Assembly (NCBI RefSeq): GCF_018476525.1
Contig: NZ_JAHCST010000009.1
Coordinates: forward strand, 124,001-188,000
Length of the DNA stretch: 64,000 nucleotides
Direction: 5' to 3'
DNA from: Acrocarpospora catenulata
Lineage (GTDB): Bacteria; Actinomycetota; Actinomycetes; Streptosporangiales; Streptosporangiaceae
This document shows, one piece after another, positions 48,735 to 64,000 of this stretch (within the stretch, counting starts at the first letter, position 1; the number at the start of each line of letters is the position of its first letter). A model generated the notes under the pieces. That model did no database searches and was not told the origin of the DNA. It saw nothing but the letters and a program-made list of their open reading frames with translations. A program made the translations under genes and the position numbers.

Positions 48735-50102
48735 CTAAATCGATATATGGCCCATGATCATGTCGCGGTACCAGTGTGCGCTGCGCTTCAGCGTGCGCCG
48801 CTGGACGGTCCGGTCGACCGAGACGAGACCAAACGTGGGGCCGTATCCGTGGGCCCATTCGAAGTTGTCGAACAGTGTCCAGACGAAGTATCCGCGCACG
48901 TCACAGCCCTGGTAGCGGGCCTGGGCCACGGCGTCGATGTGCTCGCGCAGGAAGGCGATCCGGTCCGCGTCGTCGATCGTGGCGTCGGCCGCGGTCCCGC
49001 GGGCCGTGCTCGTGGGGGTGGTGATCGTGTCGGCTGGTTTCTCGTCCGGAAAGGCACCGCCGTTCTCGGTGATGACGATCGGGATCGGCGGGTACTCGCG
49101 GTGCAGGCGGACCAGCAGGTCGGTCAGCCCCGCGGGCGTGATCGGCCAGCCGAGCGCGGTCGTCGGCCCGGTCCGAACGGCCGCGCCGTCGGCCCGTACG
49201 GTCTCGGTGAAGTAGTAGTTCACGCCGAGTACGTCCAGTGGCGTGGCGATGGCGGCCAGGTCGCCCGGTTCCACTGGCAGCGTGATGCCCTCTTCGGCCA
49301 GGTCGGCGAGGGTGTCGGACGGGTAGTGGCCGCGCAGCAGCGGGTCCAGGTACATGCGGACGCCGAAGCCGTCGGCGCGGCGGGCGGTCTCGACGTCGGC
49401 CTCGGTCTACGGGATCGCCGGGGTCAGGTTGAGGGTGATGCCGAAGCGGTGGTCTCCGGCGGCGCTACGCATGCGGTCGACGGCTGTGCCGTGGGCGAGC
49501 AGCAGGTGGTGGACGGCGTGCATGGCGGCGGCGCGGTCACGGCGTCCGGGGGCGTGTATGCCGTCGGAGTAGCCGTACATGGCCACACACCACGGTTCGT
49601 TGAGTGTGGTCCACGATGCGACGCGGTCCTGGAGGCGGGCGAACACCAGTTCGGCGTAGTCGGCGAACCGCCAGGCCGTGTCGCGCTCTGGCCAGCCGCC
49701 GGCGTCCTCCAGTTCCTGGGGCAGATCCCAGTGGTAGAGCGTCACCCACGGGTCGACGCCCCTGGCCAGCAGTTCGTCGACGAGGCGATCGTAGAAGTCC
49801 AGCCCTTTCTCGTTCGCCGGGCCCTTCCCGCCCGGTTGCACGCGCGGCCACGAGATCGAGAACCGGTAGGTGCCCACACCGAGTCCCGCCAGCAGCGCGA
49901 CGTCCTCGAGCATGCGATGGTAGTGATCGCAGGCCACGTCGCCGGTGTCGCCGTTGGTGACCGCTCCCGGTACCCGGCAGAAGGTGTCCCAGATGGAGTC
50001 GGTCCTGCCGTCTTCGCGGGCTGCGCCCTCGATCTGGTACGCCGAGGTCGCCACTCCCCAGCGGAAGTACGCGGGAAAGGTCCTTGTGGGGTCGTGAGGC
50101 AT
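48735..50102 (-). pseudogene. GH1 beta-glycosidase interrupted by one in-frame amber codon
   Basis: The full frame is 455 codons, normal for GH1. Codon 232 is TAG (49407-49409); both sides are in the same frame and no residues appear to be missing around it (L-T-P-A-I-P, stop, T-E-A-D-V-E-T-A-R-R-A-D-G-F). The acid/base motif T-L-N-E-P-W lies before it and the nucleophile I-T-E-N-G-G after it, so neither half could work alone. The rest is well preserved ([14 protein letters not shown] at the start). It would have cleaved short beta-mannosides or glucosides. The ATG follows GAAGGGA. Recent mutation, sequencing error and amber readthrough are all possible. Confidence 0.85.
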
Positions 50103-53257: not shown

Positions 53258-54421
53258 ATGACCATGTCGACCAGGCCGGTCGGTGAGACGCTCGACCACC
53301 CGTCGTCGTCCAAGGGGCCCGGCGAGTCAGAGCTAAGGGCGGACGTGCGGGCATTTCTGGCGCATAGGCGCGACCGCCACGGTTTTCGGCCTCACTGCGA
53401 CTCGTGGATGACCTCCCCCTCCCCGGAGTTCAGCCGGGCCCTGGCGGAACGGGGCTGGATCGGCATGACCTGGCCCGAGGAGTACGGCGGGCGCGGGCGG
53501 CCGGAGCGTGAACGTCTGGTGGTGATCGAGGAGCTTCTGGCGGCCGGGGCGCCGGTGGCCGCGCACTGGTTCGCCGACCGGCAGGTCGGGCCGGCCCTGC
53601 TCAAGCTGGGGACGCCCGCGCAGCGGCGTCTCCACCTGCCGGCGATCGCCCGGGGGGAGCGCTTCTTCGCTATCGGTATGTCGGAGCCCGACACCGGTTC
53701 CGACCTCGCGTCCATCCGGACCCGCGCCAGGCGCGTCACCGGCGGCTGGACGCTGCGTGGCACCAAGATCTGGACGAGCCACGCGCACCTCGCCCACTAC
53801 ATGATCGCTCTCGTCCGGACCTCGCCTCCGGACTCCGGCCGCCGGCACGAGGGGATGTCGCAGTTCATCGTCGATCTGTCGGCTCCGGGCGTCACCGTAC
53901 GCCCCATCGTCACGCTCGACGGCGCACACCACTTCAACGAGGTCGTGCTCGACGACGTCGCCATTCCGGACGACGGGCTGCTGGGCCGGGAGGGCGAGGG
54001 CTGGGCACAGGTCATGGCGGAGCTGGCCTACGAGCGGAGCGGCCCGGAGCGGTTCATGTCCACGGCCCCGCTGCTGTTCGCGCTCGCCCGCCGGGTCGGG
54101 GTCCCGCACCCCGCGCTGGGGGAGCTCCTGGCCGAGCTGCGGACACTGCGCCGCCTCTCCCGGGAGGTGGCCGACTCCCTGGAGCGGGGCGAGCCGCCGT
54201 CCGTGCGGGCGGCGCTGGTCAAGGACCTCGGCAGCCGCTTCGAGGGCAGGGTCGTCTCGACGGCGCGGGCCCTCGCCCCGGTGGAGCCCGACGCCGGCTC
54301 CGAGGACGACTACACCCGTCTGCTCGCGGAGGCGGTGCTGCACGCCCCGGACGCGACGCTGCGGGGCGGCACCAATGAGATCCTGCGCGGGATCGTCGGC
54401 CGAGAGCTGGTGTCGCGATGA
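53258..54421 (+). CDS. Acyl-CoA dehydrogenase (larger partner of a pair)
   Basis: 387 residues. Typical features: W-P-E-E-Y-G-G-R-G near residue 70, the FAD/substrate motif F-A-I-G-M-S-E-P-D-T-G-S-D-L-A, W-T-L-R-G-T-K-I-W-T-S, and R-G-G-T-N-E-I-L-R-G-I-V-G at the C-terminus. It oxidises an acyl-CoA to the 2,3-enoyl form. The stop overlaps a second, shorter acyl-CoA dehydrogenase gene by four bases, as in heteromeric FadE pairs of mycobacterial sterol degradation, so a mixed complex is likely. The ATG is preceded by AAGGG; ATG 53264 is an alternative. Substrate unknown. Confidence 0.9.
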   Translation: MTMSTRPVGETLDHPSSSKGPGESELRADVRAFLAHRRDRHGFRPHCDSWMTSPSPEFSRALAERGWIGMTWPEEYGGRGRPERERLVVIEELLAAGAPVAAHWFADRQVGPALLKLGTPAQRRLHLPAIARGERFFAIGMSEPDTGSDLASIRTRARRVTGGWTLRGTKIWTSHAHLAHYMIALVRTSPPDSGRRHEGMSQFIVDLSAPGVTVRPIVTLDGAHHFNEVVLDDVAIPDDGLLGREGEGWAQVMAELAYERSGPERFMSTAPLLFALARRVGVPHPALGELLAELRTLRRLSREVADSLERGEPPSVRAALVKDLGSRFEGRVVSTARALAPVEPDAGSEDDYTRLLAEAVLHAPDATLRGGTNEILRGIVGRELVSR

Positions 54422-55458
54422 GCTCCGAGGTCAGGATCGCGGTGGAGGAACTGCTCGCCGAGGAGCTGTCGCGCGGACCCGGCGGAGCCTGGACCGAGGA
54501 GACGCGCCACACCGCCCTCGCCGGCCTCGTCGCGCAGGGCTGGACGAAGGTCGGGCTCCCCGAGGAGCTCGGCGGCGAGGGCGGGACGCTCCAGGACGCG
54601 TGCGAGGTGGTTGCGGCCTCCGCGGCCCTGGCACTGCCGTCGCCCCTGGCGGACGTCGTCCTCGTCACCAACCGGCTGATGACCGGCGCCGGTCTCCCGC
54701 TTCCCCCCGGAGCCACGTGCGTCGTCCCGGTCGACGCCCGCGCCGCCCGGATCCTGGACGGCGCGGTGAGGTTCTCAGCCGCCCGGGTGCCCTGGGCCCG
54801 GCACGCCTCGCACCTGCTCGCGGTCGTGCCGGCCGCAGAGACGGCCTACGAGCTCGTGATCGTCGACCGCGCGGACGCCGAGATCACCCCCGGCGCCAAC
54901 CTGGCCGGAGAGGCGCGCGACGACGTCGAGGTCGTGGACGCCACCCCGCTCGCCCGCAGCCGGCCCCTCCCCTGGCCCGCCCCATCGGCCGTCGGCGAGC
55001 TGGGAGCGCTCGCCCGGAGCGTGCAGATCGCCGCCGCGCTCGAGCGGGCGCTCGAGCTGAGCGTCGCCTACTGCTCGCAGCGCGTGCAGTTCGGCAGACC
55101 GCTGTCCCGCCTGGCCACGGTGCAGCACGAGCTGGCCGCCCTGGCCGGGGAGGTGGCGGCGGCACGGGCGGCGGTGTCCGTGGCCGCCGAAACCCAGTCG
55201 GCCGCTCCCTCTCCGGCCGACCTGCGCTCCACGGCCACCGCGAAGATCCGCACCGCGAGCGCCGCGTCGGCCGGGTCGCGCATCGCCCATCAGCTGCACG
55301 GCGCCATCGGCATCACCCAGGAGTACGAGCTCTCCCGGCTCACGGTGGCGATGTGGTCCTGGCGCGAGGAGTACGGCTCAGCGAGCGCGTGGGCCGAACG
55401 GCTCGCGGCGGACGCACTGGCGGCGGAGACCGGCGTATGGGACTGGGTGACCGTATGA
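54418..55458 (+). CDS. Acyl-CoA dehydrogenase-like protein (smaller partner)
   Basis: 346 residues. G-L-P-E-E-L-G-G-E-G-G-T near residue 50 and the C-terminal Q-R-V-Q-F-G-R-P-L-S-R-L-A-T-V-Q-H-E-L-A and H-Q-L-H-G-A-I-G-I-T show the acyl-CoA dehydrogenase fold. The middle FAD motif M-S-E-P-x-x-G-S-D is missing, so it probably does not hold FAD on its own and works with the 53258 product. ATGA junctions join it to both neighbours. Confidence 0.85.
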   Translation: MSSEVRIAVEELLAEELSRGPGGAWTEETRHTALAGLVAQGWTKVGLPEELGGEGGTLQDACEVVAASAALALPSPLADVVLVTNRLMTGAGLPLPPGATCVVPVDARAARILDGAVRFSAARVPWARHASHLLAVVPAAETAYELVIVDRADAEITPGANLAGEARDDVEVVDATPLARSRPLPWPAPSAVGELGALARSVQIAAALERALELSVAYCSQRVQFGRPLSRLATVQHELAALAGEVAAARAAVSVAAETQSAAPSPADLRSTATAKIRTASAASAGSRIAHQLHGAIGITQEYELSRLTVAMWSWREEYGSASAWAERLAADALAAETGVWDWVTV

Positions 55459-56285
55459 CGGCGGCGACCGGAGGAGCAGGCGAGGGCCGCGCCGACGTCC
55501 TCGTGGAGCGTCACGGCGGTGTCGCCGTCCTCACGCTGAACGATCCGGAGCGTCGCAACGTCCTGTCGGCGCCGCTGGTCACCGCGATGTCCGCGGCGTT
55601 CGACGAGATCGAGTCGGATCCGGCTGCCCGGTGCGTGATCGTGACCGGGACCGGTCCCGCCTTCTGCGCGGGGGCGGATCTGAGCACGCTCCAGGCCGCC
55701 GCGGCGGGCGACTTCCATCTGGTACGGCAGGTCTATGACGGATTTCTCCGGGTCAGGGAGTCGCCGCTGGCCACGATCGCGGCGGTAAACGGACCGGCCG
55801 TCGGCGCGGGGTTCAACCTGGCGCTCGCCTGCGACGTGCGGCTGGGAAGCGATCGAGCGCTGTTCGACACCCGGTTCGCCCAGCTGCGCATCCATCCGGG
55901 CGGTGGGCACGCCTGGATGCTGACCCGCACCGTGGGCCTGCAACAGGCCACCCTGGCGTCGCTGTTCGGCGAGGTGTGGGACGCCGAACAGGCCGTGTCC
56001 GTGGGCCTGCTCGCGCGCCGCCTGCCCGCCGACGAGCTGCTGCCGGCCGCGATCGAGCTCGGCCGCCGGCTCGACGGGCAGGAGGCCGCCTACACCCGTC
56101 GGCTGGTGGCCACCCTGCGGAGCTCCGTCACCACCCTGGACCACGGCACCGCGCTCGCGGAGGAGGCGGAGGCGCAGGAGTGGTCCACCCGCCGCCCGGC
56201 CTTCGCCGAAGGGGTCCGCCGAATCCTTTCCCGAATCGCGAACCGCTCCGGGAAAGGAGCCGAGCACATCCAGCGGCCCCGCTGA
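55455..56285 (+). CDS. Crotonase (enoyl-CoA hydratase/isomerase) family protein
   Basis: 276 residues. The oxyanion-hole motifs A-F-C-A-G-A-D-L-S and G-P-A-V-G-A-G-F-N-L-A-L-A-C-D are clear. At the position of the first catalytic glutamate of enoyl-CoA hydratases there is an asparagine (F-N-L-A-L), and the second is also absent (F-A-Q-L-R-I-H-P-G-G-G). It therefore binds an acyl-CoA but is unlikely to be a plain hydratase; isomerase, hydrolase or C-C lyase chemistry are options. The ATG overlaps the end of the previous gene. Confidence 0.85.
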   Translation: MTAATGGAGEGRADVLVERHGGVAVLTLNDPERRNVLSAPLVTAMSAAFDEIESDPAARCVIVTGTGPAFCAGADLSTLQAAAAGDFHLVRQVYDGFLRVRESPLATIAAVNGPAVGAGFNLALACDVRLGSDRALFDTRFAQLRIHPGGGHAWMLTRTVGLQQATLASLFGEVWDAEQAVSVGLLARRLPADELLPAAIELGRRLDGQEAAYTRRLVATLRSSVTTLDHGTALAEEAEAQEWSTRRPAFAEGVRRILSRIANRSGKGAEHIQRPR

Positions 56286-56380
56286 CCGGGAACGACCGGC
56301 CTGACCTGGCCAGTGACATGCCAATCTCACCGCCACTCCCTGCACGTGGGCACAGAGCACACCGCCTTCCTCTCCAGACG

Positions 56381-56398
56381 GTCAACGGCGTGGTTGAT
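56381..56398. promoter_or_regulatory. TetR-type operator 2 (GTCAAC-N6-GTTGAT)
   Basis: Second copy of the palindrome, 74 bases before the TetR gene itself, implying autoregulation. GATAAG, a possible -10 element, overlaps its right end. Confidence 0.7.
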
Positions 56399-56471
56399 AA
56401 GGTTCGGGTCTGAGACGGTCATTGGGCGCGTGCGGTGGCGCGCTGTCGCGGATATCAGGAGGTGCGTTCGG

Positions 56472-57143
56472 GTGCCACGGCCGGTGAACGAGGGGTCCAG
56501 CGGGATCGGGCGCCGCCGGGCGCTGGCCCGCCGGGAGCAGAACGCGAGCTGGGTGGAGCGGCGCAACGCGGTGCTGGCCGCGGCCGCGGACGCACTCCGG
56601 GCGCGGGGCTACCAGGCGTTGAGCATCAACGACATCGCCCAGCGGCTGGGCAGCGACCGGGCGAGCGTGTACTACTACTTCGCGAGCAAGCAGGAGATCT
56701 TCCTCGGCCTGGTCGAACAGGCCGTGCAGGCGAACGTCGAGCTGATCGAGAAGGTCGCCGCCTCCGACGAGCCGGCCACCGTGCGCCTGCGCACGATCAT
56801 CGAGTCGCTGGCCGAGTCCTACGAACGGCACTATCCCTACCTTCATCTGTACGTCCAGGAGGACATGCGCAGGCTGTCGGAGTCGGAGTCCCCCGACGAG
56901 CGCCACCTGCTGGAGCTCGCGCGGCGATACGACGAGGCGGTGCTCCGCATCGCCCGCGACGGCGTCGAGTCAGGGGAGTTCCGCCGGAACGCCGACCCGC
57001 ACATCATCAAGTTCGCGGTGCTCGGCGCGGTCAACTGGACCCACCGTTGGTTCGTCCCGGGAGGGCGGCTGAGCGGCGCACAGGTCGGGCGGGAAATGGC
57101 CGACATCTTCCTACGCGGCGTACTGGCGGCGCCTGAGGCGTGA
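56472..57143 (+). CDS. TetR family transcriptional regulator of the catabolic cluster
   Basis: About 223 residues from a GTG preceded by AGGAGG. The DNA-binding helices are R-N-A-V-L-A-A-A-A-D-A-L-R-A-R-G-Y-Q-A-L-S-I and I-A-Q-R-L-G-S-D-R-A-S-V-Y-Y-Y-F-A-S-K-Q-E-I-F. The C-terminal domain resembles those that bind acyl-CoA compounds (KstR-like), with Y-E-R-H-Y-P-Y-L and W-T-H-R-W-F. It lies in the middle of six matching palindromes at 53.1-63.7 kb and is the obvious candidate to bind them, with a pathway CoA-thioester as the likely inducer (inference). Confidence 0.92.
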   Translation: MPRPVNEGSSGIGRRRALARREQNASWVERRNAVLAAAADALRARGYQALSINDIAQRLGSDRASVYYYFASKQEIFLGLVEQAVQANVELIEKVAASDEPATVRLRTIIESLAESYERHYPYLHLYVQEDMRRLSESESPDERHLLELARRYDEAVLRIARDGVESGEFRRNADPHIIKFAVLGAVNWTHRWFVPGGRLSGAQVGREMADIFLRGVLAAPEA

Positions 57144-57431
57144 GCGCGAAGGCGTCTGGCGCCGGCATATCGAGACACCGGCACACGTGAACGCCTTGTT
57201 GCCCAGCGTGCGTACCCGCCTGTGGTACGGCTGGTCCTTCCACACGAAGATCTTGGACAGGGACGCGGTCCACCATTTGCCGTCTCTCCTCCGAACGCGC
57301 ACGAGCCCATCGGGATCGTCATGTCCGGCCGTGCGCGGGCACCTCGGCTGCCATCCGGGAAGCCGCTCACACGTCCTCGGCGGTACGCCGCCGAGTCGGA
57401 CACGTTGAGCTTAGAACCGCATCAATAAGTT
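57144..57431. other. Intergenic region without a recognised gene
   Basis: Between the TetR gene and operator 3. On the minus strand a frame at about 57111-57302 contains a protein-like run (K-W-W-T-A-S-L-S-K-I-F-V-W-K-D-Q-P-Y) that I cannot assign and that partly overlaps the TetR gene end. It may be a remnant. No other signal is seen. Confidence 0.35.
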
Positions 57432-57449
57432 ATCAACGGTTTCGTTGAC
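57432..57449. promoter_or_regulatory. TetR-type operator 3 (ATCAAC-N6-GTTGAC)
   Basis: Third copy, 88 bases before the acyl-CoA ligase start. Its right arm forms TTGACA (57445-57450), a possible -35 element. Confidence 0.72.
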
Positions 57450-57536
57450 AGATCGCCGATGGCGCGTTTCGATGCCGTTCAGACATTCACCCCCCCTCCC
57501 GGGTGGTGGCACCACAACAGCAAGGAGGTGAGCGTC

Positions 57537-59072
57537 GTGCTGGACGTCAGGACCGCCATGCGTCGCTCCGCACAGTTCCACTGGGACCGCCCCGCCATCG
57601 CCAGCGACGGCCGTCAGTTGACGTTCGGTGAGGTCTGGCGGCGCGGGACGCGGCTGGCCAACGCGCTCCTCGCGGCCGGCCTCGAACCCGGCGACCGCGT
57701 GGCGGTCCTCGAGGACAACTGCGTCGAGGCGGCCGACTTCTACATCGGCTCCGCCGTCGCGAACCTCATCCGCGTGCCGCTCTACCGGCGCAACTCGTCC
57801 GTCGCGCACCGCTACATGCTCTCGGGCACCGGGTGCAAGGTCGCCGTCGTGGCCGAGGAGTACGCCCACGAGATCAAGGACATCGTGGACGAGCTCGGCA
57901 TCACGCTGATCGTCCGCGACTCAGGCTATGAGGACTGGCTCGCTTCGTTCCCCGACACCGACCCCGACCCGCGCGTCGAACTCGACGACGCCTTCATCAT
58001 CCGCCACTCGGCGGGGACCACCGGCAGGGCCAAGGGCATCGCCTACACCCACCGGGCCTGGATGAACACCACCCGCGACTGGTTCTTCATGCTGCCTCCG
58101 ATCGAGCCTGGGGACAGGTGCCTGCACGTGGGTCCGATCAGCCACGGATCGGGGTACCTGTTCCTGCCCGTGTGGCTGGCGGGCGGGTGCAACGTGCTGG
58201 ACCGCAGATTCCAGGCCGACGGCTTCGTCGAGCGCGTCGCACGGGACGAGATCGGCTGGTTCTTCGCGGTCCCCACCATGATCGCCGACATCGTGGCCGC
58301 GGTCGACCGCCGAAGGCAGGACCTGCCGTCCCTCAAGGCCGTGATGATCTCCGGTGCACCGATCAGCGTCCGCACCGCGCGGGCCGGGCACGAGGTGTTC
58401 GGGGACAGGCTGTTCCAGATGTACGGCCAGACCGAGGCCGTGCCGGTCTCCTTCATGGGATCCAAGGAGTGGTTCTCTGAGGTCTCCGGGTCCGAGCCGA
58501 TCGTCTCCGCCGGCCGCGTGATGCCGTTCGCCGAGCTGGAGATCCGGGACCCGGACAACAACTCCCTGCCCATTGGCGAGGAGGGCGAGATCGCCATCCG
58601 CTGCGACGGACAGATGACCGGCATCTGGGGCGACCCCGAGCTGAGCGACCGCCGGCTGCGGGACGGCTGGGTGCTCACCGGCGACATCGGCCGGCTCGAC
58701 CGGAACGGCTACCTCTACGTCGTCGACCGTGTCGATGACATGATCGTCTCCGGCGGCTTCAACATCTGGCCCGCCGAGCTGGAACAGGCGATCCAGACGC
58801 TCCCGGACGTACGGGAGGTCGTCGTCTTCGGCGTGCCGCATGACAAGTGGGGCGAGGCGCCGATGGCCGTGGTCGTGAAGCCCGCGGACGCGAACCTGGA
58901 CGAGGGCACGGTCATCGAGACCTGCACGCGCCTGCTGGGCTCCTACAAGAAGCCCCATACGGTCGTGTTCCGGGACAGCCCGCTGCCGCGCAGCCCGGTC
59001 GGCAAGATCCAGCGCAAGGTGTTGCGGGAGCCGTACTGGGCGGGGGAACAGCGCCGCGTGCGCGGTTCCTGA
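57537..59072 (+). CDS. Acyl-CoA synthetase (AMP-forming, ANL family)
   Basis: About 511 residues from a GTG preceded by AAGGAGGTG, preferred over earlier in-frame starts. P-loop H-S-A-G-T-T-G-R-A-K-G, A5 region Q-M-Y-G-Q-T-E, A7 T-G-D-I-G-R-L-D and A10 lysine in P-R-S-P-V-G-K-I-Q-R-K identify an ANL ligase; it resembles the long-chain/aromatic acid group. It activates the pathway's carboxylic acid as a CoA thioester, the first step before the acyl-CoA dehydrogenases. Monocistronic under operator 3. Confidence 0.9.
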   Translation: MLDVRTAMRRSAQFHWDRPAIASDGRQLTFGEVWRRGTRLANALLAAGLEPGDRVAVLEDNCVEAADFYIGSAVANLIRVPLYRRNSSVAHRYMLSGTGCKVAVVAEEYAHEIKDIVDELGITLIVRDSGYEDWLASFPDTDPDPRVELDDAFIIRHSAGTTGRAKGIAYTHRAWMNTTRDWFFMLPPIEPGDRCLHVGPISHGSGYLFLPVWLAGGCNVLDRRFQADGFVERVARDEIGWFFAVPTMIADIVAAVDRRRQDLPSLKAVMISGAPISVRTARAGHEVFGDRLFQMYGQTEAVPVSFMGSKEWFSEVSGSEPIVSAGRVMPFAELEIRDPDNNSLPIGEEGEIAIRCDGQMTGIWGDPELSDRRLRDGWVLTGDIGRLDRNGYLYVVDRVDDMIVSGGFNIWPAELEQAIQTLPDVREVVVFGVPHDKWGEAPMAVVVKPADANLDEGTVIETCTRLLGSYKKPHTVVFRDSPLPRSPVGKIQRKVLREPYWAGEQRRVRGS

Positions 59073-59149
59073 GGTCGTCGCCGTTCCCCGTTCATGACGG
59101 CGCCGGGCCGGTTCCGGCCCGTGAGTTCCTCGATGGCCTCCAGGCAACT

Positions 59150-59167
59150 GTCAACGCATGTGTTGAC
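59150..59167. promoter_or_regulatory. TetR-type operator 4 (GTCAAC-N6-GTTGAC)
   Basis: Fourth copy. The right arm forms TTGACA (59163-59168), and TATCAA (59187-59192) lies 18 bases on as a -10 element, so the operator covers the -35 element of the monooxygenase operon at 59251. Confidence 0.75.
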
Positions 59168-59176
59168 ACGGACGGG

Positions 59177-59204
59177 CCGTGAGGCCTATCAATAGGCCTC
59201 ACGG
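59177..59204. promoter_or_regulatory. Perfect 28-base palindrome at the monooxygenase promoter
   Basis: Arms CCGTGAGGCCTAT and ATAGGCCTCACGG (13 bases each, perfect) are separated by CA. It overlaps the proposed -10 element. It could be a second operator or, as a hairpin (stem CCGTGAGGCCT, loop ATCAAT), a terminator for the ligase gene ending at 59072. Confidence 0.7.
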
Positions 59205-59250
59205 GCGCCGAGAACGGCAGCGCGCCAGGAGACGATGAAGGAGTTCGGCG

Positions 59251-61104
59251 ATGACCATGGTGGACGAGACCGCACCCGTTGTGGCGGAGGAAGTGTTCTC
59301 CTCCTGGTTGCGGGAGTTCGAGACGGCCTCCTGGACCGGCGATCCGGAGCGCCTGGCGGCCTGTTTCCTCGACGACGCCTACTGGCGGGACATCCTCTCC
59401 TTCACCTGGGAGTACCGGACCTTCGCCGGCCGGGACGCGATCGTCACCGCGCTGCGCGCGGCCCTGCCCGAGGTCCGTCCGGGCGAGTTCCGCCAGGCGC
59501 CCGGCCGATCGCTGCCCCGGCTGGTGAAGCGCTCCGGCAGGCGCGTCGTCGAAGCGTTCTTCGAGTTCGAGACCGCTGTCGGGCGCGGGCACGGCTTCGT
59601 CCGCCTGCCCGTCGAGGGCGCGCCCCCCGGCGGCCCGCGCGCCTGGATCCTGCTGACCACCCTGCACGAGCTGCGCGGGTTCGAGGAGCAGATCGGCGAG
59701 CGGCGTCCGACGGGGCTGGAGTACTCCTCGAACTTCAGCGGCGACAACTGGGCGGACCAGCGCCGCAAGGAACAGGAGTACGCCGACCGGGACCCCGAGG
59801 TGCTGGTCGTCGGCGGAGGCCAGGCGGGGCTCATCCTCGGCGCCCGGCTGCGCCAGATCGGCGTTGACGCGCTGATCGTGGAGAAGCTGGATCGGATCGG
59901 CGACAACTGGCGGCAGCGCTACCACTCGCTGACCCTCCACAACGAGGTGTGGGCCAACAGCCTGCCGTACGTCCCCTTCCCGCCGACCTGGCCCACCTTC
60001 GTGCCGAAGGACAAGCTCGCCGGCTTCCTTGAGGCGTACGCCGAGTTCATGGAGCTGAACGTCTGGACGGGCACGGAGTTCCGGGGAGCCACCTACGACG
60101 AGGGATCCCGGCTGTGGACGGCGCACCTGGGGAGGGCCGGCGGGACGGAGCGGGTCGTGCGGTGCCCGCACATCGTCCTCGCCACCGGCAGTGTGAGCGG
60201 GACGCCCACCATCCCGTCGATGCCCGGGCTCGACGACTTCGCCGGGGAGGTCGTGCATTCGAGCCGGTTCACCAGCGGAATCGAGTACCGAGGCCGCAGG
60301 GCGATCGTCGTCGGCACCGGCAACAGCGGCCACGACGTGGCCCAGGAACTGCACGAGAACGGCGCGGCCCAGGTCACGATGGTCCAGCGCGGCCCCACGT
60401 GCGTGGTCAGCCTGATCCCCAGCGGCACGCTGGTGTACTCGCTCTTCTCCGAGGGCCCGCCCGTCGAGGACATCGACCTCATCACAGCGTCGATCCCCTA
60501 TCCGGTGCTCAAGGAGTCCTACCAGCGGATCACGCGGCGCACGACCGAGATAGACGGGGAGCTGCTGCGGCGGCTCCAGGCCGCTGGATTCGAGGTCGAC
60601 CAGGGCCCGGACGGCACCGGCTTCCACATGAAGTACCTGCGCACGGGAGGTGGCTACTACATCAACGTCGGATGCTCCGACCTCATCGCCGACGGACGGA
60701 TCCGGGTCGTCCAGGCGCGTGACATCGTCCGCTTCACCCGGGACGGCGCACTCCTCGCCGACGGGACGACGATCGAGAGCGACCTGGTCGTGCTGGCGAC
60801 CGGCTACGAGAACCAGCAGGAGGCCGTACGCCGCATGTTCGGCGACGAGTTGGCCGACCGGATCGGCCCGATCTGGGACTTCGACGAGGACGGCTTCATG
60901 CGCAACATGTGGCGGCGCCTCGACCAGGACGGGTTCTGGCTGATGGGGGGCTCGCTCATCGAGTGTCGCACCTTCTCGCGCTACCTCGCGCTGGCCATCA
61001 AGGCCGACCTCGAGGGCCTGCTTCCTCCGCGCCCAGGACGTACCGCGCTCCCTCCCGCCGCGTCCCCCGCGGACCTCGCGAGGGGCGAGGAGAGCGTCCG
61101 GTGA
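59251..61104 (+). CDS. Flavin-containing monooxygenase with N-terminal NTF2-like domain
   Basis: 617 residues. Residues about 15-150 form an NTF2/SnoaL-like cone (W-L-R-E-F-E-T-A-S-W-T-G-D-P-E-R-L-A); residues about 180-600 form a two-Rossmann flavoprotein with V-L-V-V-G-G-G-Q-A-G-L (FAD), the FMO-type F-A-G-E-V-V-H-S-S-R-F, and V-V-G-T-G-N-S-G-H-D-V-A (NADPH). It likely inserts oxygen into a small lipophilic substrate (hydroxylation or Baeyer-Villiger). The NTF2 domain may bind substrate. The ATG follows AAGGAG; the stop overlaps the next gene (GTGA). Confidence 0.88.
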   Translation: MTMVDETAPVVAEEVFSSWLREFETASWTGDPERLAACFLDDAYWRDILSFTWEYRTFAGRDAIVTALRAALPEVRPGEFRQAPGRSLPRLVKRSGRRVVEAFFEFETAVGRGHGFVRLPVEGAPPGGPRAWILLTTLHELRGFEEQIGERRPTGLEYSSNFSGDNWADQRRKEQEYADRDPEVLVVGGGQAGLILGARLRQIGVDALIVEKLDRIGDNWRQRYHSLTLHNEVWANSLPYVPFPPTWPTFVPKDKLAGFLEAYAEFMELNVWTGTEFRGATYDEGSRLWTAHLGRAGGTERVVRCPHIVLATGSVSGTPTIPSMPGLDDFAGEVVHSSRFTSGIEYRGRRAIVVGTGNSGHDVAQELHENGAAQVTMVQRGPTCVVSLIPSGTLVYSLFSEGPPVEDIDLITASIPYPVLKESYQRITRRTTEIDGELLRRLQAAGFEVDQGPDGTGFHMKYLRTGGGYYINVGCSDLIADGRIRVVQARDIVRFTRDGALLADGTTIESDLVVLATGYENQQEAVRRMFGDELADRIGPIWDFDEDGFMRNMWRRLDQDGFWLMGGSLIECRTFSRYLALAIKADLEGLLPPRPGRTALPPAASPADLARGEESVR

Positions 61105-61940
61105 CCCGCCATCTGGACAAAGCCGTCCTCGTCACCGGGGCCGCGAGGGGGATCGGGCGCGCCGTGGCCGAGACCTTCGCCGCGGAGGGTGCCGACGTCG
61201 TCGCGTGCGACGTCGGCGCCCCCGTCCGGGGAGCCCAGTCCACGACCGCCTGGCGGGACGACCTCGACGGGACCGCCAGTGCAGTACGCGCCCTGGGCCG
61301 GCGCTGCCTCGCCGTCCCCGTCGACGTGCGGAGCCAGGCGTCGCTGGACGAGGCGGTCGCCCGCGGTCTCGAGGAGTTCGGGCGCCTGGACGTCGTGGTC
61401 GCCAACGCCGGGATCATGCAGTCGGCGGAGTTCTGGGAGATCGCCGAGGAGACGTGGCAGGCGGTCCTCGATGTCAACCTCGGTGGAGTCTGGCGGACCG
61501 CCAAGGCGGTCGCGCCGCACATGATCGAGCGCCGCTCGGGAGTGATCCTCGCCACCGCGTCGGTCCAGGCCCGCAGCGCGCGCAAGGGGCTGGCGGCCTA
61601 CACGGCGTCGAAGCACGGGCTGCTGGGCCTGATGAAGTGCCTCGCGCTGGAACTCGGCGACCACGACGTCCGGGTCAACACCGTCCTGCCCGGTGCCGTG
61701 CACACACCGATGATCGACAACGAGGAGACGGGCCGGCTCGGCGGGGACTCACCTCGAACCGCGTTCTTCCGGAAGATGGCGGCGCTGCGCAACCGCTCCG
61801 CTCTTCCGCCGTCCGCTGTCGCGGCGGCGATGTCGTGGCTGGCCTCGGACGAGGCCGGGCACGTCACGGGCGCGGAGCTGCAGGTCGACGCGGGATCGCT
61901 GGTCCTCCCTGGGCTGAACCACGCACCCGTGATCGACTGA
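61101..61940 (+). CDS. Short-chain dehydrogenase, mycofactocin-coupled-like insertion
   Basis: 279 residues. T-G-A-A-R-G-I-G (NAD), N-A-G-I, catalytic serine in A-T-A-S-V-Q, and Y-T-A-S-K-H-G. After the second strand (V-V-A-C-D-V-G-A-P) there is an extra segment of about 20 residues before L-G-R-R-C-L-A-V-P-V-D-V-R, as in SDRs whose NAD is tightly bound and recycled by mycofactocin. If so, a mycofactocin system should exist elsewhere in the genome. It probably oxidises the alcohol or reduces a ketone made by the monooxygenase upstream. The GTG overlaps the previous stop. Confidence 0.85.
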   Translation: MTRHLDKAVLVTGAARGIGRAVAETFAAEGADVVACDVGAPVRGAQSTTAWRDDLDGTASAVRALGRRCLAVPVDVRSQASLDEAVARGLEEFGRLDVVVANAGIMQSAEFWEIAEETWQAVLDVNLGGVWRTAKAVAPHMIERRSGVILATASVQARSARKGLAAYTASKHGLLGLMKCLALELGDHDVRVNTVLPGAVHTPMIDNEETGRLGGDSPRTAFFRKMAALRNRSALPPSAVAAAMSWLASDEAGHVTGAELQVDAGSLVLPGLNHAPVID

Positions 61941-62023
61941 ACCGTCACAGGCGGCCGGGCGGGTCCCCAGCCGGCCGCCGGTGCGGGGCCGTCTCATGGG
62001 GCGGAACCTGGCCGCGTTGACCT

Positions 62024-62041
62024 GTCAACAACTCCGTTGAT
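62024..62041. promoter_or_regulatory. TetR-type operator 5, between -35 and -10 elements
   Basis: GTCAAC-N6-GTTGAT lies exactly between TTGACC (62017-62022) and GATAAT (62039-62044), 16 bases apart. A bound repressor would occlude RNA polymerase directly. The gene served is the cyclase at 62085. Confidence 0.8.
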
Positions 62042-62084
62042 AATCTCCTTGAGGCAGGTGAGCCGTCGTTCTTGGGAGGTTGCC

Positions 62085-62957
62085 ATGCGGTATCGGTTCG
62101 AGGTTGGCGACGAACGCGGAGCCCTCAACCTGGTCGACGAACGGGCGGTCCGGCGCGGGCTGGACAGCGCGAGCCACGGCACGGTCATCCCGCTGGCCCA
62201 GCCGATCCGGGCCGGGGCGGCGCCGATCGCCGCCATGCGGACCCCACCGGTGCACTTCATGAGCCGGGACGGAGGCGACTACGCCGCCGGCCTGCCCGAG
62301 CGGCCCGGCTTCGGCTTCGCCGACGACTCCATCCTGCTCGCCTGCCATGGCGCCACGCACCTCGACGCCCTCGCGCACGTCTGGCAGGACGGCGTCATGT
62401 ACGGCGGGTTCAGCTCGGACGAGGTCACCAGCCGCGGGGCCAAACGCTGCGGCATCGACAAGGCCGGCCCGTTCGTCTGCCGGGGGCTGCTCGTCGACGC
62501 GGTGCCCGAGGGCGCCGACGGCCTCGAACCCGGCACCCCGGTGCCCGTCGACGTCCTCCGCGCGGCCCTCGACGGCTGCGACCCCCGCCCCGGCGACGCG
62601 CTGCTCGTACGGACCGGCTGGCCGGCGCTGTGGCGCGCGGACCCGTCGATCGGCACCGAGTCCTGGCCGGGGCTGGACGTGGACAGCGTCGAGTGGATCC
62701 TGGAGGCGGGCTTCGCGCTGGTCGGCGCCGACACGATCGGCGTGGAGGTCTCCCCGTCGAGCGACCCGTCCTGCGCCTCGCCCCTGCACATCGCGCTGAT
62801 CCGCGACCACGGAGTCTACTTCCTCGAACTGCTCGCGCTGGACGCGCTCGCCCAGGCCCTGGCCGCGGCCGGCCGCCGCGACTTCCTCCTCGTCGTCGCC
62901 CCGCTGCCGATACACCAAGCGGTCGGCAGCCCGGTGGCGCCCGTGGCGGTACTGTAG
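62085..62957 (+). CDS. Cyclase-family (kynurenine formamidase-like) metal hydrolase
   Basis: 290 residues. The metal-site signature is present as H-G-A-T-H-L-D-A-L-A-H, together with L-L-V-R-T-G-W and a late H-I-A-L-I-R-D-H-G-V. This family hydrolyses formyl amides, cyclic amides or lactones. In this cluster it could open a lactone made by a Baeyer-Villiger reaction of the monooxygenase (inference). The ATG follows GGGAGGT. Confidence 0.88.
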   Translation: MRYRFEVGDERGALNLVDERAVRRGLDSASHGTVIPLAQPIRAGAAPIAAMRTPPVHFMSRDGGDYAAGLPERPGFGFADDSILLACHGATHLDALAHVWQDGVMYGGFSSDEVTSRGAKRCGIDKAGPFVCRGLLVDAVPEGADGLEPGTPVPVDVLRAALDGCDPRPGDALLVRTGWPALWRADPSIGTESWPGLDVDSVEWILEAGFALVGADTIGVEVSPSSDPSCASPLHIALIRDHGVYFLELLALDALAQALAAAGRRDFLLVVAPLPIHQAVGSPVAPVAVL

Positions 62958-63551
62958 ATGGCCGGCCGCTCCTTCGCGCCGCGCGGCGCCCGGCGCGAGA
63001 AGCACCTCGACGTCCTACCCGTCTCCGACACCGAGATGCGGGTCGTCGCCACGCTGCGGGACACCAGCACGGCCATCGACGATCCCGCCGACATCGAGGT
63101 GATCCACGACCTCCGCCTGGATGCGACGATCACGATCCCAGACCTGACGATCCGGGAGATCTCCGCCCACTCCGCACAGCAGCCCTATGACCAGTGCGCC
63201 GTTACGGTCGCGCCGGTCTCCCGGCTGCGCGGCCTCAGCATCCGGCGCGGCTACCGGCGGCAGGTCCTCGAGGTGCTCGGCGGCACTCTGGGGTGCAGCC
63301 ACTTCCTCACCCTCGCCCTCGACCTGTCCGCGGCCAACGTCCTGTCCATCTACCTGCGGATGCGCGCCGAGGTGGACAACACCCCGGGCAACCGCGCCGA
63401 CGGCACCTGGACGCGTGCCGGCATGCGGATCGAGCCCAGGCTGCTGAACGCCTGCGCCGCGCTCGCCGCCGACTCGCCCGTCCAGCGCCGCGCCAAGCGT
63501 CCACAGCCACCGGTCACGAGCACGACCGGGCGCACAGACGACGAGGAGTGA
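62958..63551 (+). CDS. DUF2889 domain protein
   Basis: 197 residues. The features D-A-T-I-T-I-P-D-L-T-I, L-G-G-T-L-G-C-S-H-F-L-T-L-A-L-D and the invariant-looking cysteine-histidine pair are those of DUF2889 proteins, which occur in steroid and aromatic degradation clusters of actinobacteria and proteobacteria without a settled role. The ATG directly follows the cyclase stop, so the two are co-translated. A poorly conserved, basic tail follows residue 170. Confidence 0.8.
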   Translation: MAGRSFAPRGARREKHLDVLPVSDTEMRVVATLRDTSTAIDDPADIEVIHDLRLDATITIPDLTIREISAHSAQQPYDQCAVTVAPVSRLRGLSIRRGYRRQVLEVLGGTLGCSHFLTLALDLSAANVLSIYLRMRAEVDNTPGNRADGTWTRAGMRIEPRLLNACAALAADSPVQRRAKRPQPPVTSTTGRTDDEE

Positions 63552-63704
63552 CGCACCGAAGGCGTTGACGGAGGAGGGCATCATCGCGGGCCCTGAGCGG
63601 GCAGGTCCACCGGTGGGACGCCAGGGCGGGCACACTCGTCACGATCGTTCTCACCTCTCGTCGAGCTTGGGTCGCGACCGATGCTCGTCCGTGCGGGCCG
63701 AAAT

Positions 63705-63722
63705 GTCAACGGAGTCGTTGAT
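63705..63722. promoter_or_regulatory. TetR-type operator 6, with a further half-site and promoter
   Basis: GTCAACGGAGTCGTTGAT lies 124 bases before the last gene. A further GTTGACA half-site at 63760 forms a -35 element with AATTATCG at 63781 as a possible -10 region. The gap 63552-63845 holds no gene. Confidence 0.7.
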
Positions 63723-63845
63723 ATTGCGTTCTCGGGACACGGAAGCTGTAAACAGGTGCGTTGACAACCCTGCGACCGGTAATTATCGTTCCGGGTCACA
63801 TGTCCGGATCGCACTGGTTCCGGCCCTGAGACATCGGAGAACGAC

Positions 63846-64000
63846 ATGGTCGTCTTATGGCTTCGCCATGCCCGGATAGTGGCCGCCACCGCGGTGATGC
63901 TCGCGGTGGCAGCGTGCGGCGATGACGGCGGGACATCGTCGAACACCTCGGAGAGCACCCTGAAGGTGGGCGTCTGCGTGCCCAACGGTCCTGGCCTTGC
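63846..64000 (+). CDS. Substrate-binding lipoprotein, N-terminus only (runs off the window)
   Basis: 51 residues are visible. A basic start, hydrophobic core (I-V-A-A-T-A-V-M-L-A-V-A-A) and lipobox ending in A-A-C are followed by G-D-D-G-G-T-S-S and then T-L-K-V-G-V-C-V-P-N, the first strand of an ABC or TRAP-like solute-binding protein. It is probably the first gene of an importer for the pathway substrate, under operator 6. Codon 4 is TTA. Confidence 0.7.
   Translation, partial: MVVLWLRHARIVAATAVMLAVAACGDDGGTSSNTSESTLKVGVCVPNGPGL

Follow-up and report, generated by a model that had tools for sequence, protein, structure and literature searches.

A conserved, patchily distributed actinobacterial gene cluster that may degrade a bulky alicyclic compound through Baeyer-Villiger oxidation

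Introduction

Rhodococcus erythropolis DCL14 degrades limonene and carveol by a route that comprises the carveol dehydrogenase LimC, a Baeyer-Villiger (BV) monooxygenase (BVMO), the lactone hydrolase MlhB and coenzyme A (CoA)-dependent beta-oxidation (PMC7794910). Here we analyzed a stretch of 64,000 nucleotides of the Acrocarpospora catenulata genome (G000:C171:124001-188000, G000 being this genome; hereafter the window), in which a type II flavin monooxygenase (FMO) is encoded together with a pair of acyl-CoA dehydrogenases (ACAD-A and ACAD-B), a crotonase-family protein, an acyl-CoA ligase, a short-chain dehydrogenase/reductase (SDR), a cyclase-family hydrolase and a DUF2889 protein. The window holds the larger part of a conserved cluster, which on balance we favor reading as a patchily distributed catabolic unit that degrades, via BV oxidation, a bulky terpenoid- or steroid-like alicyclic compound. 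The predicted pathway shares with the DCL14 route the logic of hydroxylation, cyclic ketone formation, BV oxidation, lactone hydrolysis, CoA activation and beta-oxidation. It differs in that the first oxygenase is probably a cytochrome P450, the BV enzyme would be a type II FMO and the hydrolase belongs to PF04199, a family other than that of MlhB; the unit also includes a heteromeric ACAD and a thiolase/DUF35 heteromer. Because the enzymes differ at most steps, we did not class the cluster as a member of the limonene/carveol pathway.

The closest described relatives of the FMO are N-terminally extended type II enzymes, namely JsFMO (8ACS), FMO-E, FMO-F and FMO-G of Rhodococcus jostii RHA1 and PsFMO A-C of Pimelobacter, all of which perform BV oxidation; for JsFMO it has been demonstrated with norcamphor and other ketones (PMC10028610). 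Type II FMOs serve as biocatalysts, and a conserved gene unit around one of them offers a concrete route to its substrate. To our knowledge, natural substrates are known for none of these enzymes, nor do we know of a natural pathway assigned to a type II FMO.

Two further parts of the cluster have described counterparts. Alpha2beta2 ACADs such as FadE26-27 (ChsE4-5) and Tcur3483/3481 have a large substrate cavity, with the catalytic Glu on the alpha chain and part of the FAD bound by the beta chain (PMC11153573). A thiolase fold paired with a DUF35 protein (zinc ribbon and OB fold) is found in the steroid aldolase Ltp2, in the benzoylsuccinyl-CoA thiolase BbsAB and in the bile-acid aldolase Sal. 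Sal has Gly at the position of the nucleophilic Cys and relies on two residues of its YDCY motif, the Tyr and the Cys (PMC12329534).

Conservation of the Gene Unit

FMO orthologues (61-71% identity, at a threshold of at least 60%) occur in 7 of 120 related genomes, and in all seven a thiolase homologue (thiolase2, 53-83%) and the cyclase (54-84%) lie on the contig of the FMO within about 20 kb. Most of these clusters also contain the ligase (68-78% in six of them), the DUF2889 protein, a P450, a ferredoxin, a second thiolase homologue (thiolase3), a DUF35 protein and a TetR regulator (45-74%). In A. catenulata, thiolase2, the DUF35 protein, thiolase3, the ferredoxin and the P450 are encoded on the minus strand 16-21 kb past the end of the window (C171:204273-208565), and a tblastn map of related contigs showed that this block goes with the window genes and that the intervening genes do not. 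The gene set of the original prediction, made from the window alone, is thus real and incomplete by these five genes.

The closest relatives of the cluster are found in genome G075 and in a Pseudonocardiaceae metagenome-assembled genome (MAG; FMO 70-71%, cyclase 84%), with the order thiolase2, DUF35, thiolase3, TetR, ferredoxin, P450, ligase, cyclase, DUF2889, FMO. Four other genomes (G044, G087, G088 and G015) hold the P450, ACAD-A, ACAD-B, thiolase3, DUF35, thiolase2, cyclase and FMO together in differing orders; in these four and in G003 the ACAD pair lies within about 20 kb of the FMO set. A search of 395 genomes sampled from the class gave, apart from the source genome, only six with an FMO match of E 1e-180 or better; three of the six had been included in the count above. 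The ACAD pair is more widespread (24 of the 120 genomes at E 1e-70). Since these sets are found again in several families of actinobacteria, the grouping exceeds chance, and the neighborhood search that had been proposed for the ACAD pair with DUF2889 and the NTF2-extended monooxygenase did return recurring sets in related genomes. Such a distribution is the pattern that a horizontally moved or often-lost catabolic island would be expected to leave.

Homologues were also seen further afield. A betaproteobacterial MAG, from another phylum (L035), carries together an FMO (55%), a P450 (60%), a ferredoxin, a DUF2889 protein (42%) and a Liv-type transporter. On plasmids of Cupriavidus, Variovorax and Sphingobium (L054, L055, L056), type II FMO homologues of 45-49% identity sit in a different recurring set of FMO, SDR, amidohydrolase and a carboxymuconolactone-decarboxylase-like protein.

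The Flavin Monooxygenase and Its Probable Link to Baeyer-Villiger Chemistry

The nearest solved relative of the window FMO is JsFMO (8acs, E=1e-125), with an alignment that covers residues 22-597 of 617. A SnoaL/NTF2-like extension of about 160 residues is fused to the FMO domain, whose FAD motif lies at residue 188, a domain layout shared with the extended type II enzymes. Most of their FxGxxxHxxx[YF][KR] motif is shared as well: in the corresponding stretch, FAGEVVHSSRFT, the first part is there and the last position is Thr, not Lys or Arg. At the fingerprint of type I BVMOs, FxGxxxHxxxW, the protein has Phe for Trp. At the positions of the JsFMO active-site residues His-216 and Tyr-458, the window FMO has His-230 and the first Tyr of GGGYYINVG, and both are invariant in it and in 10 relatives. 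By relationship to a proven BV enzyme, BV chemistry is probable for this protein.

An independent line of evidence came from the neighborhoods of ACAD-A homologues (about 45-63% identity) away from this FMO, for 20 of which the density of BVMOs was known from searching the proteins of the genomes. In six of the 20 (L112, L114, L116, L122, L123 and L124) there is a type I BVMO whose FxGxxxHxxxW fingerprint is complete, about 18 times more than the 0.33 expected from per-genome BVMO counts (Poisson P about 1.5e-6, the neighborhoods being not all independent; 2.6e-5 with the two most similar loci merged). In addition, a cyclase homologue (52%) in a genome of the same genus adjoins another type I BVMO. 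Both ACAD-A and the cyclase are therefore tied to BV enzymes independently of the window FMO. The BV step of the original prediction is strengthened on both counts. Its proposal of a hydrolase acting after that step is supported too, and the recurrent association of the ACAD pair with BV enzymes could serve as a marker for other alicyclic degradation pathways in actinobacteria.

Acyl-CoA Dehydrogenase Pair, Crotonase and Thiolase Homologues

We searched solved structures with a profile of ACAD-B built from 12 relatives, and the best matches, 6wy8_A (Tcur3481) and 4x28_D (FadE27), are beta subunits of alpha2beta2 ACADs. The partner alpha chains, 4x28_A (FadE26) and 6wy9_A (Tcur3483), are among the top solved matches of ACAD-A, whose AYERSG Glu falls at NHER in the alignment with 4x28_A. 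Like FadE26-27 and Tcur3483/3481, the window pair is encoded by adjacent, overlapping genes and consists of a full-length alpha chain with a candidate catalytic Glu and a divergent beta chain recognized in its C-terminal domain only; it differs from them in its distant identity and in having BVMO or FMO genes as recurrent neighbors. These features support a predicted alpha2beta2 heteromer, in line with the heteromeric dehydrogenase proposed earlier, and carry the suggestion of a bulky substrate.

The crotonase-family protein is altered, as had been noticed from the sequence: read by alignment against a canonical homologue, the two catalytic glutamates of enoyl-CoA hydratase (E144 and E164 of the rat enzyme) are replaced by Asn and Phe. 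The same two residues occupy these columns in two orthologues and in one paralogue of the source genome, and the nearest NCBIfam model, PRK05870, is matched below its cut-off.

In thiolase2, all three catalytic residues of a thiolytic thiolase are replaced (the nucleophilic Cys by Gly, the second Cys, of HDCF, by Pro and the His of GHP by Asn), and the replacements are conserved in 10 orthologues; thiolase3 is even more degenerate. The DUF35 protein of the same block has a ChsH2-type zinc ribbon and OB fold, so that, as in Ltp2, Sal and BbsAB, a thiolase fold is paired with DUF35, and as in Sal, Gly stands in place of the nucleophilic Cys. The arrangement differs from these systems in having two thiolase homologues, one of them highly degenerate, in the motif HAPF at the site of YDHF, YDCY or HDCF, and in the Asn of GHP. 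An aldolase-like role is the nearest analogy for these proteins, which keep a DUF35 partner without any recognized catalytic residues.

SDR, Cyclase-Family Hydrolase and DUF2889 Protein

The SDR matches the mycofactocin-coupled subfamily model TIGR03971 with 303.8 bits, at a cut-off of 300, and is proposed to carry out an alcohol-to-ketone step. In the cyclase-family protein, the metal motif of PF04199 (HxGTHxDxxxH-type) is intact as HGATHLDALAH and nearly so in relatives, one of which has Gln for the first His; the closest solved relative is an uncharacterized protein (5ibz).

The cluster gives DUF2889 a testable context. Across 21 diverse members of the family, eight positions are invariant, including Asp35, His50, Cys80, Cys113 and His115. 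A comparison of the AlphaFold model (pLDDT, the predicted local distance difference test score, of 93) with VIA-align placed IscU proteins at the top with Z 6.9 and a root-mean-square deviation of 2.6 over 92 residues, a Z below 8 being one that may reflect a common arrangement only. Cys80 and Cys113/His115 sit at helix starts, which is where the ligands of IscU lie. A profile-profile comparison with NifU_N gave no support (probability 0.1%, from shallow alignments), and Foldseek gave no match below E 0.001. We regard the likeness of the modeled fold to the Fe-S scaffold IscU as a lead. Elsewhere, a DUF2889 protein (54%) is encoded near a ligase (52%) at a site that has no FMO, and the tie of DUF2889 may therefore be to the ligase.

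Proposed Pathway and Alternatives

We infer the order of steps and the class of substrate from the predicted enzyme activities. The ABC (ATP-binding cassette) transporter would take up the substrate, the P450/ferredoxin pair would hydroxylate it and the SDR would turn the alcohol into a ketone. The FMO would then insert oxygen by BV oxidation to give a lactone or ester, which the PF04199 metallo-hydrolase would hydrolyze. The released acid could be activated to its CoA ester by the ligase, dehydrogenated at the alpha,beta position by the alpha2beta2 ACAD and hydrated or isomerized by the non-canonical crotonase, after which the thiolase-fold heteromer with DUF35 would cleave a carbon-carbon bond, probably in a retro-aldol-like rather than a thiolytic manner. 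The TetR protein is the likely regulator. That an acid substrate is activated first, as the original prediction had it, is conjectural; hydroxylation, ketone formation, BV oxidation and hydrolysis followed by CoA activation make a more economical order. The broader outline of the prediction fared better: a catabolic CoA pathway is supported, and so is an alicyclic, terpenoid-like compound as the probable class of substrate. Its statement that the combination matches no known pathway is likewise consistent with the literature, in which we found no orthologous cluster with an assigned substrate, none that combines BV, P450, thiolase/DUF35, cyclase and ACAD functions, and none for DUF2889; these searches covered open-access papers and are weak evidence. 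We also considered the camphor, cineole and geosmin pathways, and nothing links the cluster to any of them. In its boldest form, the proposal would be an undescribed BV pathway that acts on a bulky alicyclic natural product and unites a type II FMO, a heteromeric ACAD, a heteromeric thiolase-fold/DUF35 lyase devoid of all known thiolase and aldolase catalytic residues and an IscU-like metal-binding DUF2889 helper, a conjecture that we hold to be doubtful as a whole.

Several observations weigh against BV degradation of an alicyclic compound. In the source genome the cluster is interrupted by other genes, close orthologues of the crotonase occur in two related clusters only and the SDR is not kept in most of them, so that ketone formation may fall to other dehydrogenases. 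The genome, which is 98.4% complete, also gave no match to MftC, the mycofactocin maturase, or to MftD over the cut-offs of TIGR03962 and TIGR03966, both of which are found in a genome of the same genus. JsFMO is only distantly related to the window FMO; its Asp-217 corresponds to Asn-231 there and to Asn in all 10 relatives, which sets them apart from the described extended enzymes. JsFMO moreover oxidizes sulfides, and it does not accept camphor, fenchone or any of the monocyclic ketones on which it was tried (PMC10028610). The PF04199 family includes formamidases and others besides lactonases. Thiolase2 has neither the YDHF motif of Ltp2 nor the YDCY motif of Sal, and a Tyr at the first position of the HAPF site appears in one orthologue only.

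A steroid or triterpenoid side-chain pathway is the best of the competing explanations, albeit an unlikely one. Here the ligase, ACAD, crotonase and thiolase/DUF35 proteins would shorten the acid side chain of a polycyclic nucleus, the end of that chain would be oxidized by the P450, and the FMO and cyclase would act on a ring ketone, the substrate being a sterol-like acid. Among solved structures, the ACAD pair is indeed closest to cholesterol side-chain enzymes, the DUF35 protein is of the ChsH2 type and the P450 matches, among many others, a reconstructed CYP125 ancestor. The identities are distant, however, all window proteins fall short of the cut-offs of steroid-specific NCBIfam models and no MaoC-type hydratase was recognized in the cluster. 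The early impression that sterol-specific enzymes are absent holds only in part, as the ACAD pair and the DUF35/thiolase set most resemble, albeit distantly, parts of steroid side-chain degradation.

It is quite unlikely, in our view, that the FMO is not a BV enzyme and instead oxidizes N or S or decarboxylates a keto acid oxidatively, with the cyclase acting on an amide or imide and the substrate containing N or S. The segment FAGEVVHSSRF is of the FxGxxxHxxx[YF] FMO type, not that of the type I BVMO fingerprint, the sulfide oxidation by JsFMO fits and the cyclase weakly matches the arylformamidase model TIGR03035. BV oxidation by every one of the extended type II FMOs described in PMC10028610 speaks against this, as does the recurrence of ACAD-pair and cyclase homologues next to genuine type I BVMOs.

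The contigs that carry the ligase, FMO, cyclase, DUF2889 and TetR genes in the two closest relatives are short and show no ACAD pair, and ACAD-A/B occur in many genomes without this FMO. Both facts could be explained by two unrelated neighboring clusters, one of ACAD-A, ACAD-B, crotonase and TetR and the other of ligase, FMO, SDR, cyclase and DUF2889. Yet a stretch of about 20 kb holds both sets in G044, G087, G088, G015 and G003, and the different gene orders in these five genomes argue for selection to stay together; we regard such a split as very unlikely. That the cluster is biosynthetic, tailoring a secondary metabolite, is hardly credible: P450, FMO and CoA ligase genes are found in biosynthetic clusters too and a long lantibiotic-dehydratase-like open reading frame (ORF; named from reading its sequence only; L010:9232-12588) lies about 26-30 kb past the window end, but the conserved genes include no synthase, nonribosomal peptide synthetase or polyketide synthase, the genes for ABC uptake, the ACADs, the crotonase and the thiolase/DUF35 proteins are catabolic in character, and the distribution, 7 of 120 relatives, is patchy.

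Gene Content of the Window and Neighboring Regions

All nine genes of the original prediction are present on the plus strand at 53258-63551, with family matches in Pfam and NCBIfam (Table 1). ACAD-A and ACAD-B, ACAD-B and the crotonase, and the FMO and SDR genes overlap by 4 bases, and the cyclase and DUF2889 genes abut; co-transcription would therefore fit. The ligase probably starts at a GTG at 57528-57537, as orthologue alignments begin only from residue 26. For uptake, the first 51 codons of a lipoprotein gene are in the window, and the permease and ATPase genes, of the branched-chain-amino-acid type, follow it only beyond the window end.

Table 1. Positions of the cluster genes in the window and of the two thiolase homologues beyond its end
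Feature	Position	Strand	Family or structure match
ACAD-A, putative catalytic (alpha) chain of a heteromeric ACAD	53258-54421	+	Pfam N, middle and C domains
ACAD-B, putative beta subunit	54418-55458	+	Pfam C-terminal domain only
Crotonase-family protein without both hydratase glutamates	55455-56285	+	PF00378
TetR-family regulator	~56484-57143	+	TetR_N and TetR_C_24
AMP-forming acyl-CoA ligase	57459-59072	+	PF00501/PF13193
N-terminally extended (SnoaL/NTF2-like) type II FMO, probable BVMO	59251-61104	+	8acs match
SDR, mycofactocin-coupled subfamily	61101-61940	+	TIGR03971
Cyclase-family metal-dependent hydrolase, proposed lactone hydrolase	62085-62957	+	PF04199
DUF2889 protein	62958-63551	+	Pfam
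Start of lipoprotein substrate-binding gene, branched-chain-amino-acid-type ABC transporter (runs on past the window)	63846-64000	+	
Thiolase2	G000:C171:204270-205445	minus	
Thiolase3	L010:609-1709	minus	

Past the transporter, about 7-11 kb beyond the window end, the minus strand encodes a ring hydroxylase, a hydrolase of the FAH family and a VOC protein. A second set, on the plus strand, consists of genes for an SCPx-like/DUF35 protein, a thiolase and a ligase together with a TetR regulator. The two sets face each other (L009:9969-18733) and are apparently a separate degradation cluster inserted within the conserved one. The absence of a ring dioxygenase, claimed from the window, holds within it; the VOC gene past its end is extradiol-dioxygenase-like.

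A second region of the source genome (L011; G000:C138:108000-124000) also contains ACAD, SDR, crotonase, thiolase and DUF35 genes. Its paralogues of ACAD-A and the crotonase are 43% and 42% identical to those of the window, and a BVMO match lies at the end of the region (C138:123865-124491). Upstream of the cluster, on the minus strand of the window (48735-50102), a beta-glucosidase-like gene is broken by an in-frame stop near 49407-49409 into two ORFs of the same frame, either as a pseudogene or through a sequence error.

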